Shown here in pieces: positions 31,244 to 33,469 of a stretch of 46,419 nucleotides of DNA. The translations under genes were made by a program, and so were the position numbers. Within the stretch, counting starts at the first letter, position 1; each line of letters begins with the position of its first letter. Location: NCBI GenBank assembly GCA_024398105.1, contig JAKSJP010000020.1, positions 1-46,419 on the forward strand. Direction: 5' to 3'. The notes below the pieces were generated by a model. That model did not search any database and was not told where the DNA came from. It saw nothing but the letters and a program-made list of their open reading frames with translations. This DNA is from Bacteroidales bacterium. Its GTDB lineage: Bacteria; Bacteroidota; Bacteroidia; Bacteroidales; UBA932.

Positions 31244-32260
31244 ATGGGAAAGATCAATAACATAGCCGTTTTTTACGGCAGCGACTCTTCTGAATGGGAG
31301 GTTTCATGCCGCAGCGGCGAATTCACAGCATCGAGGATCGATGAATCCAAGTTCAATGTATATGAGGTTTTCGCCCGTTTTGGAAAATGGGAGCTCGTGG
31401 CATTCCGCAAGAAGGAATCCATGAGGGTCACCTTCCCTGAGGGTGCACGCCCACAGGTCGACCGCAACGACTTCTCTGTGAATGTCTATGGCGAGAAGAT
31501 CAAGCTTGACTTTGTTTATGTGATGCAGCATGGCCGTCCAGGTGAGAACGGACTTCTCCAGGGCTATCTTGAGATGCTTGGCATCCCTTACAGCAGCTGT
31601 TCTTCATTCGTGAGCGCCATCGTCTTCGACAAGTATTCGTGCAAGAGCTATCTGCGTGACGTGGATTTCGTGAAGCTTGCACCGGACGCATTCATCCGCA
31701 AGGGTGCTGATGTCGAGGCTTTCTGCAAGTCTGCGCTCGAGAAGCTCGCTCTTCCTCTCTTCGTGAAGCCTACCGACGGCGGTTCAAGCTTCGGTATCAC
31801 CAAGGTGAAGGAGGCTGACAAGCTTGCCGATGCCATCAACTATGCTTTCACCGAGGGCTCGACAGTCATCGTGGAGAGCGGTGTCAGCGGCAGGGAGCTT
31901 ACCTGCGGTGTGTATTTCGACGGCGAGAAGGTGAAGGCTCTTCCTGTCATCGAGATCGTGACAAGCAACGAGTATTTTGACTATGACGCGAAGTACAACG
32001 GCAACAGCCAGGAGATCTGTCCTGCTCAGATTCCGGACGAGCTTCGCGAGAAGGTCCAGGAGACTACCTGCAGGATCTATGAGCATCTCGGATGCAAGGG
32101 TCTTGTGAGGATCGATTATATTGCTGCTGAGGATGGACTTTATTTCCTCGAGGTGAACAATATCCCTGGTATGACCAGCGCTTCGCTCGTGCCTAAGATG
32201 GTGCGTGCCGCCGGCATGGATATCACCGCCTTCCTCACCACCATCATCGAAAATTCATAA
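31244..32260 (+). CDS. ddl: D-alanine--D-alanine ligase
   Basis: It makes the D-Ala-D-Ala dipeptide for the peptidoglycan stem. The 338-residue ATP-grasp protein shows HGRPGENGLLQGYLEMLGI (variant of the usual HGxxGEDG), LFVKPTDGGSSFGITKV, VESGVSGRELTCGVYF and the metal-binding FLEVNNIPGMTSASLVP. It follows the PBP gene on the same strand. The 321 bases after it contain two large palindromic elements rather than a simple terminator. Confidence 0.95.
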   Translation: MGKINNIAVFYGSDSSEWEVSCRSGEFTASRIDESKFNVYEVFARFGKWELVAFRKKESMRVTFPEGARPQVDRNDFSVNVYGEKIKLDFVYVMQHGRPGENGLLQGYLEMLGIPYSSCSSFVSAIVFDKYSCKSYLRDVDFVKLAPDAFIRKGADVEAFCKSALEKLALPLFVKPTDGGSSFGITKVKEADKLADAINYAFTEGSTVIVESGVSGRELTCGVYFDGEKVKALPVIEIVTSNEYFDYDAKYNGNSQEICPAQIPDELREKVQETTCRIYEHLGCKGLVRIDYIAAEDGLYFLEVNNIPGMTSASLVPKMVRAAGMDITAFLTTIIENS

Positions 32261-32272
32261 TTCAGATAACAG

Positions 32273-32420
32273 CAATCCGAAGTAGAATCACCGGACAAAG
32301 GTCAGAGGTCCGAACGGGTAAATCCCTCCCAGCTGACGCTGGGCCCCTCCCGTTCACGCGGTCACGGGCGACCACGCCCGTTCGGACCTCTGCCTTCGTC
32401 CTTGTCCATATTTCGGATTG
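32273..32420 (+). repeat. Structured palindromic element, copy 1
   Basis: The outer stem is 32303-32318 with 32377-32392 (16 perfect pairs), extended by 32293-32298 with 32402-32407 and 32273-32281 with 32412-32420. Inside are the box ATCCCTCCC (32322-32330), a hairpin CCCAGC/GCTGGG (32328-32343) and the box GGGCCCCTCCCG (32341-32352). An H-type pseudoknot follows: stem 1 CCCGT (32349-32353) with ACGGG (32364-32368), and stem 2 GGTC (32360-32363) with GACC (32370-32373). The second element downstream has the same order of parts in the opposite orientation. There is no T-run that would make it a plain terminator. Confidence 0.8.
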
Positions 32421-32433
32421 TTGTGCTCTGAGA

Positions 32434-32561
32434 GGTTGCAGCTGACAGGGTCCAGAAGGCGTTGCCACCCGCGGCACGTCAGCGGGAGGGGCCCGAAAGC
32501 CGCAGGCTTTTGGGAGGGATAGCGCGAAGCGCGTACCTTCTGGACCCTGTCAGCTGTAACC
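32434..32561 (-). repeat. Structured palindromic element, copy 2 (inverted)
   Basis: The outer stem is 32439-32459 with 32536-32556 (21 perfect pairs, plus flanking GGTT/AACC); its sequence is unrelated to that of copy 1. On the minus strand the interior reads: hairpin GCGC-TTC-GCGC, ATCCCTCCC (plus 32512-32520), hairpin AAAGCC/GGCTTT (plus 32496-32510), and GGGCCCCTCCCG (plus 32483-32494). The pseudoknot has stem 1 CCCGC (32482-32486) with GCGGG (32468-32472) and stem 2 TGCC (32473-32476) with GGCA (32463-32466). Both pseudoknot stems change relative to copy 1 while keeping pairing. It ends 20 bases before prmC. Confidence 0.8.
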
Positions 32562-32581: not shown

Positions 32582-33469
32582 ATGAAACTGGCAGAATTCA
32601 TAAGGGAGACGGTCGAGCGGCTGGGAGCCTTGTATCCTGAGAGGGAGGCGAGGTCGATCGTGCTGATGCTGACCGAAGCCATGCTCGGGACCAAGAACTA
32701 CACCCACATAGTCGAGCCCGGCTACGAGATACCGGCCTCCAAGGAGGCTGACCTGGCGGCGGCAGTCGAGAGACTCGCCGGCGGCGAGCCTGTCCAGTAC
32801 GTCCTCGGCAAGGCTGAGTTCTATGGAAGGACTTTCAACGTCAGTCCTGCAGTGCTCATCCCAAGGCCAGAGACCGAACTTCTCTGCCGCGAGGCCATCA
32901 AGATCGCAGAAAGGATGGTCCGCATGCGCTCAGCCTACGGAAAGACCACCCTCAGGATCCTCGACCTCTGTACAGGATCGGGCTGCATAGCATGGACCAT
33001 GGCCCTGGAAATCCCGGGAGCGGAGGTCGTCGGCGTCGATATATCCAACGAGGCGCTCAAGGTCGCATGTTCCCAGAACTTCCCGGAGATTGAGAAAAAC
33101 GGGTCGAGCATACGCTTCGCGGAAGGCGACGTCCTGAATCCGGCCCTCTTCCCGGAACTCGGAAAATTCGATCTCGTCCTCAGCAATCCGCCATACATCA
33201 AGGAAAGCGAAAAGGCGAAGATGCGTCCTAACGTACTTGAACATGAACCGGCCATAGCCCTCTTCGTCCCGGACGAAGACCCTCAGCTTTTCTATAGGGC
33301 TGTAGGCTATCTCGCTAAACGTTTACTCAACCCGGAAGGCTTCGGACTAGTCGAGATAAACGAGACGGAAGGTCCTCAGACTCAGGCAGCTATAAAGGCC
33401 GAGGGATTCTCCAGGACGACTTTGGTCAAGGATATAAATAACAGGAACCGATTCGTTGAATTTGCATAA
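32582..33469 (+). CDS. prmC: Peptide chain release factor N5-glutamine methyltransferase
   Basis: It methylates the GGQ glutamine of release factors using SAM. The 295-residue protein, starting MKLAEFIRETVERLG at 32582, has an N-terminal helical domain, the SAM-binding LDLCTGSGCIAWTMAL (about 122-137) and the catalytic SNPPYIKESE. It ends with the family tail ...NRNRFVEFA. The frame stays open upstream into the palindromic element, but that extension is non-coding by composition. A strong terminator follows at once. Confidence 0.94.
   Translation: MKLAEFIRETVERLGALYPEREARSIVLMLTEAMLGTKNYTHIVEPGYEIPASKEADLAAAVERLAGGEPVQYVLGKAEFYGRTFNVSPAVLIPRPETELLCREAIKIAERMVRMRSAYGKTTLRILDLCTGSGCIAWTMALEIPGAEVVGVDISNEALKVACSQNFPEIEKNGSSIRFAEGDVLNPALFPELGKFDLVLSNPPYIKESEKAKMRPNVLEHEPAIALFVPDEDPQLFYRAVGYLAKRLLNPEGFGLVEINETEGPQTQAAIKAEGFSRTTLVKDINNRNRFVEFA

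Follow-up and report, generated by a model that had tools for sequence, protein, structure and literature searches.

An inverted pair of pseudoknot-bearing palindromes between ddl and prmC, probably mobile and acting as folded single-stranded DNA

The window analysed here is a stretch of 46,419 nucleotides from a Bacteroidales genome (contig JAKSJP010000020.1 of assembly GCA_024398105.1). Its host is a gut bacterium, and related bacteria carry the element family described below. In the window, the genes labelled ddl and prmC are separated by 321 bp that are occupied by two elements in opposite orientation. Each element has a core, consisting of the box CCCTCCC, a hairpin, the box GGGCCCCTCCC and an H-type pseudoknot with stems S1 and S2 and loops L1 and L3. 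The core is enclosed by an outer stem formed from two arms (Table 1). An earlier sequence-only reading had described this pair, with common boxes and named stems, and its observation is confirmed. It had also called the outer stems perfect, which is true for the 21 bp of copy 2; the stem of copy 1 is perfect for 16 bp only and continues imperfectly out to 32273 and 32420. The two-box pattern CCCTCCCN{2,30}GGGCCCCTCCC has 2 matches in the window, compared with 0.00 expected from 100 dinucleotide shuffles. RNA folds of element plus arms, which are unable to represent the pseudoknot, have z values of -8.05 and -7.73, with 0/200 shuffles as good. The listed open reading frame (ORF) of prmC begins at a TTG farther upstream than the start given by the relatives.

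Table 1 Positions of the two elements and their neighbouring genes in the window
Feature	Position	Strand	Remarks
ddl, upstream neighbour	31244..32260	+	Name is the label of the sequence-only reading, without family scan
Copy 1, left outer arm	32273..32304	+	Private; imperfect pairing with 32391-32420; no likeness to the L002 flank
Copy 1, block common with L002	32305..32390	+	Inner arms GAGGTCCGAACGGG / CCCGTTCGGACCTC and core; 86 nt, 2 differences
Copy 1, CCCTCCC, hairpin AGC..GCT and GGGCCCCTCCC	32324..32351	+	CCCTCCC 32324-32330; hairpin 32331-32340; GGGCCCCTCCC 32341-32351
Copy 1, H-type pseudoknot	32349..32373	+	S1 CCCGT/ACGGG, L1 TCACGC, S2 GGTC/GACC, L3 C
Copy 1, S1	32349-32353 / 32364-32368	+	CCCGT / ACGGG
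Copy 1, S2	32360-32363 / 32370-32373	+	GGTC / GACC
Copy 1, right outer arm	32391..32424	+	Private to copy 1
Copy 2, 3' outer arm	32439..32459	-	CAGCTGACAGGGTCCAGAAGG on the + strand; perfect 21-bp complement of 32536-32556
Copy 2, pseudoknot	32463..32486	-	S1 CCCGC/GCGGG, L1 TGACG, S2 TGCC/GGCA, L3 T
Copy 2, S1	32482-32486 / 32468-32472	-	
Copy 2, S2	32473-32476 / 32463-32466	-	
Copy 2, CCCTCCC, hairpin and GGGCCCCTCCC boxes	32484..32518	-	
Copy 2, optional GC hairpin	32522..32532	-	GCGCTTCGCGC
Copy 2, 5' outer arm	32536..32556	-	Pairs with 32439-32459
prmC, downstream neighbour	32582..33469	+	Start from alignment with relatives; name is the label of the sequence-only reading, without family scan

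The two copies belong to a large family. G000, the assembly to which the window belongs (2.43 Mb, 48 contigs, 91.8% complete), contains 20 exact matches to the two-box pattern and none to a reversed-pattern control. A covariance model (R1), built on 41 copies, finds at least 32 matches in G000 at E values up to 0.001, including weak ones and ones truncated at contig ends; at most 150 candidates were scored per genome, so 32 may be an undercount. Among genomes of the same GTDB family, 61/199 carry the pattern, G000 included, and the reversed control has no match in any of the 199. These genomes represent 11/25 genera and hold up to 45 copies each. Further copies, whose absence would have refuted the sequence-only reading by its own criterion, thus exist both in the genome and in its relatives. 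In a wider contig collection, at least 120 stretches contain the pattern, and 80 of these loci were parsed. Among the parsed loci, the pseudoknot form with matching geometry comes from records titled Bacteroidales, Bacteroidia or Bacteroidaceae. Alphaproteobacteria and some high-GC genomes have a different 3' part or chance-like matches, a few of the Alphaproteobacteria copies passing a loose pseudoknot parse with G.T pairs. One more pattern-bearing record is titled Candidatus Cryptobacteroides. The window elements have no blastn match among PLSDB plasmids and INPHARED phages.

Several other arrangements of the element were observed. Further inverted pairs, spaced approximately as in the window, lie in G000 (C1:68030+/68187- and C25:10830+/10968-) and in L232 (4601+/4765-). 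In L117, L137, L163 and other 92-nt model matches, the internal hairpin is swapped for a longer one with TCGTTACTTCGTAA, as if nested. Four G000 copies, at the ends of contigs C6, C9, C26 and C38 (loci L013, L014, L008 and L025; L538-L541), are broken within the pseudoknot, all at one point, by GAGGGCACTGAAAAAGGGTAGC..., which looks like one end of an insertion sequence that uses the element as its target. This end was seen at the four G000 contig ends only, with nothing similar in plasmids. Among the matches listed for IMG/VR, many contigs of ~5-17 kb and a GC content of 0.43-0.46 contain the same two boxes around a short hairpin, once each and in near-identical context (L402, L404, L408, L409, L414, L415, L422, L437 and others). 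The GC-rich viral contigs among the listed matches (L407, L421, L424, L446, L478) hold 4-6 box copies, several of them just ahead of a possible gene start.

The pseudoknot is the conserved feature of the core. Of 41 copies selected by their boxes, 40 parse with an S1 of 5 bp, an L1 of 0-7 nt (mostly 3-6), an S2 of 3-7 bp and no L2; the exception, L010, has one S1 mismatch. L3 is a single nucleotide in all parsed copies but one. For a larger alignment (A3), 106 matches in 100 selected loci were reduced to 94 distinct sequences, fitted to a search model that contains S2 but not the S1 pairing. S1 is paired in 99.1% of cells and S2 in 98.9%. Two-sided changes occur in 259 cells, compared with 64 after shuffling and at most 29 in slid controls; the covariation score is 0.439, compared with 0.103 and at most 0.061. 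Covariation was assessed by five measures, two of which do not stand out from shuffles. Copies were located by exact boxes first, and box conservation in alignments A1 and A3 is therefore largely built in. Both stems are thus kept throughout the further copies, and their two-sided cells outnumber those of the controls. This agrees with the covarying pseudoknot and the selection on a folded RNA or single-stranded DNA that had been proposed from the two window copies.

The five variable pairs of S1 and S2 contain zero G.U in all 94 sequences, which leans towards pairing at the level of DNA. The internal hairpin of the same sequences holds several pairs of the G.U type, with UG in 11 at one pair. 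In a broader, less clean set, 6/525 cells are G.T; here 204 distinct copies were seen and 132 used, 105 of these intact, after copies with the alphaproteobacterial format, short flanks or no GGG had been dropped.

Comparison of orthologous loci indicates that the elements move. In relatives, the gap between ddl and prmC is -4 to 33 bp in 28/28 loci read (29 loci were taken, the best-matching ones from 128 other genomes that had a ddl match, and one lacked prmC). The two genes nearly abut in relatives, so almost all of the 321 bp in the window looks acquired. The best ddl identity to G000 among 150 other genomes of the genus is 74%. As no close relatives of G000 were found, the comparison with empty sites used another genus of the family (g6), some genomes of which are 95-98% alike at the compared loci. 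Flanks were searched for 20 sites (7 out of 12 prepared, plus 13), and 12 sites were aligned. Four have clean empty alleles. The L165 site is empty in 4/4 relatives looked at, the L149 site in 6/8, the L178 site in 2/4 and the L172 site in the single relative aligned. The two filled relatives at L149 are one ortholog and one separate insertion. These four sites, together with the ddl-prmC gap, show that the elements move. A mobile palindromic element was one of the two main options of the sequence-only reading, which had suggested looking for empty sites between ddl and prmC; copy number, the short gap in relatives and the empty sites elsewhere all support it.

The remaining alignments are less direct. 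L093, L107, L100 and L116 are equivocal, and L109 is filled in the relatives aligned. Decay products are seen at L117, where the left half is missing in G109 and G167, and at L167, where one arm is retained in G141. The single-arm allele of G151 at L171 is probably a deletion. One orthologous site has the core in opposite orientations between the same arms (L114 versus L103, L173 and L174; G173 versus G191, G167 and G109). The copies lie mainly at gene 3' ends. For 67 copies, the flanking genes are tandem in 26, convergent in 24, divergent in 5 and unclear in 12; convergent versus divergent gives p 0.0005, based on simple ORF calls, with orthologs included and kinship uncorrected. No recurrent neighbour gene emerged among the top 15 and top 12 ORF clusters of two listings, which are orthologous loci or apparent high-GC frame artefacts.

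The outer arms differ from the core in that most are private to their copy. In a test of 108 intact copies, orthologs among them, the left and right arms of 105 pair better than 95% of swapped pairs, with a median score of 20 versus 6. Copy 1 of the window and L002 illustrate the boundary: beyond their common block of 86 nt, the outer stems are unrelated, and each outer arm is complementary to its own partner, with mismatches. L007, L018 and L021 have the same core and inner arm and diverge farther out, although L007 and L021 are still alike for about six nucleotides beside it; L006 is less regular.

At some sites, one of the arms contains the end of a neighbouring reading frame that was already there. 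The six empty alleles at L149 all hold GAG(C/T)TGTAG, interpreted as the 3' terminus of an open frame, and those of G120 and G131 contain the full ten nucleotides AGCTGTAGAG. In the filled allele, AGCTGTAGAG forms the outer part of the left arm and its inverted copy CTCTACAGCT the right arm. These alleles give good support to an outer stem at L149 that consists of the pre-existing end of the neighbouring gene and a new inverted copy of it. In G046, where a separate insertion occupies this junction, the arms are TGTAGA/TCTACA. At L173, for which only filled alleles were available, the left arm of four genomes can be translated as a conserved C-terminus, E-L-G-L-(K/E)-E-I-stop; opposite it lies an inverted copy as the right arm, decayed in G173. 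Empty alleles at L178 hold TGAAAGCC (G046) or CGGCC (G131), and the filled allele shows GGC...TTTTCA opposite. The longest arm with an apparent origin in the target is that of L093, whose 19 nt are already present in G131, although this allele may be a deletion. Judged from such alleles, the arms appear to be inherited in part, with the remainder copied from neighbouring DNA at some sites. A further junction, L109, has different arms in three genomes (L192 in G098, L109 in G173, L203 in G046), and the left arm in G098 is like one of the others and the right arm like the other.

Taken together, the window probably contains an inverted pair of non-autonomous mobile palindromes that resemble repetitive extragenic palindromic (REP) sequences, with folded single-stranded DNA as the active form and a snap-back end that copies host DNA. 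Selection would act on the core in its folded single-stranded form, most likely as DNA exposed at replication, and the core would be recognised by a mobilising enzyme or by the replication machinery. Foldback synthesis is the simplest account of the arms: after copying the hairpin, a strand would finish with a sequence that can pair with its own beginning. Its 3' end could then fold back and copy the host DNA on the other side of the site, whereby the outer stem would gain an inverted duplicate of the adjoining sequence, before synthesis rejoins the original template at a short match. This may happen at insertion, or later through template switching at the replication fork. The core's complement could also form a GGG-A-GGG ... 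GGG-A-GGG quadruplex around the hairpin. The product of foldback synthesis could equally arise from an RNA template, if a nick primed its copying by a reverse transcriptase. The evidence leans towards DNA over RNA, on account of the zero G.U in the variable pairs and of the arms that are inverted neighbouring DNA at some sites.

An RNA-level explanation would take the element as a structured RNA, either a small RNA or a cis element at 3' ends, selected as RNA and spread by retroposition or chance. The strong covariation is what such an RNA would show, and so is the bias to gene 3' ends, with 24 convergent versus 5 divergent of the 55 classified copies. Yet the variable pseudoknot pairs are free of G.U, host-copying arms are not expected from an RNA function, and inversion of the core at an orthologous site would hardly be tolerable for an oriented RNA. 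Comparison with Rfam 15, also suggested by the sequence-only reading, gives 0 matches at gathering level in the window; relaxed matches reach only E values of 3.3 and 5.6, the best scoring 15.3 bits where 69.1 are required. We consider a structured RNA decidedly unlikely. Insertion into pre-existing hairpins such as terminators, the outer stem being the target itself, would account for the private stems. Group IIC introns insert in this way. The single-arm allele at L093 has a 7-bp inverted repeat at the site, and L172 and L178 lie at short palindromes (GGCC; CGGCCG in G131). The empty alleles at L149, L165, L178 and L172, however, contain no long hairpin, and the relatives have almost no space between ddl and prmC. 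We consider this explanation highly improbable.

Another possibility is that the elements belong to the REP system, in which palindromes are mobilised by a Y1 (HUH) transposase, the REP-associated tyrosine transposase (RAYT), whose substrate for cutting is single-stranded DNA in folded form. The elements resemble REPs and REPINs in their size, in lying between genes, in forming inverted pairs and in copy number. Y1_Tnp is found in 47/61 element-bearing genomes versus 83/138 others (Fisher p 0.024, kinship uncorrected and IS200 included), and G000 has 4 Y1 matches; the three that were read are open frames of 316-350 codons, RAYT-like but divergent. In L301, L164, L100 and L161, a Y1-like ORF is found ~0.4-0.5 kb away from an element, counted without a test against chance and with L100 and L161 orthologous. 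In all four, the element is on one side of the ORF, and none has elements on both sides; in L257 the distance is at least 5 kb. A Bacteroidetes RAYT subclass is described as flanked by 'atypical secondary structures' (PMC6006769), which also counts in favour. On the other side, no model match lies within ~2.5 kb, or less at contig ends, of 20 other Y1 loci, and palindromes of different sequence adjoin most of 13 RAYT-like genes inspected by eye, as well as that of L301. G080 has 20 copies and no Y1 match at 96% completeness. Y1 is found in 0/7 alphaproteobacterial genomes with the same boxes, and the control Caulobacter vibrioides has one. With 0 elements near the 20 Y1 loci and a weak association, Y1/RAYT was rejected as an established partner, and we retain it as an unlikely alternative.

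The RAYT-like proteins themselves were aligned (A2). Those of L359-L378 (for example L360, L361, L364 and L377) and L301 are divergent, ~300-320 aa long and have a long C-terminal part. By eye, most of the inspected genes bear a palindrome of their own on both sides.

Several observations weigh against the proposed spread of a folded single-stranded DNA with snap-back copying. No mobilising enzyme was found among Y1 transposases, DUF559 nucleases and recurrent neighbour genes. In A3, the pairs with two-sided change number 10 versus 9.6 after shuffling, and the further pair types 29 versus 31.5. One U.G occurs at an otherwise fixed S1 pair, and few independent mutational events could equally explain the zero G.U elsewhere. 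In an H-type pseudoknot, an L3 of 1 nt has little room to span 5 bp of stem, which means that S1 and S2 may form alternatively rather than together. Swapped arms score up to 27, because certain copies have arms in common. An example is the pair L172 and L116, so outer stems are mostly, but not always, unrelated between copies. The cases of arm copying can in part be read otherwise. The L093 allele of G131 may be a deletion between direct repeats ATCTG, and a deletion is likelier at L171 because G087, G141 and G197 are all filled. The empty alleles at L165 have neither arm, which means that this insertion carried its imperfect arms along, and the insertions at L178 and L172 seem to have brought most of their arms too. 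At L107, neither arm is visible in two diverged relatives without the element, and the G098 copy L192 at the L109 junction has arms that do not match.

Bacterial palindromic repeats are usually attributed to a dedicated transposase, for which constant ends serve as the recognition site. In the present family, most copies have ends of their own, which at some sites are copies of host sequence, and it is the inner pseudoknot that is held by compensatory change. The element possibly represents a new mode of spread, in which a folded single-stranded element without constant ends would write its ends at new sites by foldback copying of the flanks in inverted orientation. The core, with its double C-box, its hairpin and a pseudoknot of Watson-Crick pairs, would be the lasting part and the inner arms would be inherited for a while. 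We put forward this combined view tentatively, with a little less than even confidence. If true, it would provide a testable route for hairpin DNA to spread and lengthen, and would give enzyme hunters a single, precisely delimited folded substrate to work with. No description of the element was found in search listings of the open-access literature.

The elements share with REPs and REPINs that they are short intergenic palindromes in many copies, sometimes in inverted pairs, missing from some orthologous sites and biased to gene 3' ends. They differ in their larger folded core with a covarying pseudoknot and in an outer stem that is private to each copy. As the arms differ between copies, the feet of the element show no constant sequence, and this divergence would leave no constant tag comparable to the GTAG/GTGG foot tetranucleotide of REPs at the outer foot. 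No RAYT gene with these elements on both sides was found among the Y1 loci and element loci examined, in contrast to REP/RAYT systems. TIRYT terminal inverted repeats are palindromes beside genes of Y1-type transposases (PMC3733652). Such sets of gene and palindrome exist in G000, but their palindromes are other sequences, each beside its own gene. Like miniature inverted-repeat transposable elements (MITEs), the elements are small, non-coding, palindromic and mobile. Unlike in MITEs, no constant terminal inverted repeat or constant target duplication was seen: the terminal repeat varies by copy, and the 2 bp GC at L172 and at L178 may be taken for a target duplication, with none at L165.

The elements also resemble a proteobacterial repeat of the form CCCTCA-CCCTCCC-hairpin-GGGCCCCTCCC-TCTCCC..GGGAGAGGG. 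Both of its boxes are identical and likewise enclose a hairpin, a CCCTC/GAGGG pair resembling S1 is present, and the repeat often occurs in inverted pairs. Its 3' part reads as a plain CCCTCTCCC/GGGAGAGGG hairpin, whereas the Bacteroidales element has the pseudoknot there. A DUF559 nuclease gene lies beside or between copies of the proteobacterial repeat at six loci by motif (L242, L284, L298, L307, L269, L279), and Pfam finds DUF559 in all four loci scanned (L242, L284, L298, L307). As a partner of the Bacteroidales element, to which the alphaproteobacterial copies had pointed, DUF559 was rejected, with a match in 0/61 element-bearing family genomes, G000 included. The boxes recur in proteobacterial repeats and in phage contigs, which hints at a broader class of folded single-strand signals. 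The kind to which the element belongs, the mobile palindromic repeat, is already known; with its pseudoknot core and its private, partly host-copied arms, the Bacteroidales element is a distinct variant of it.
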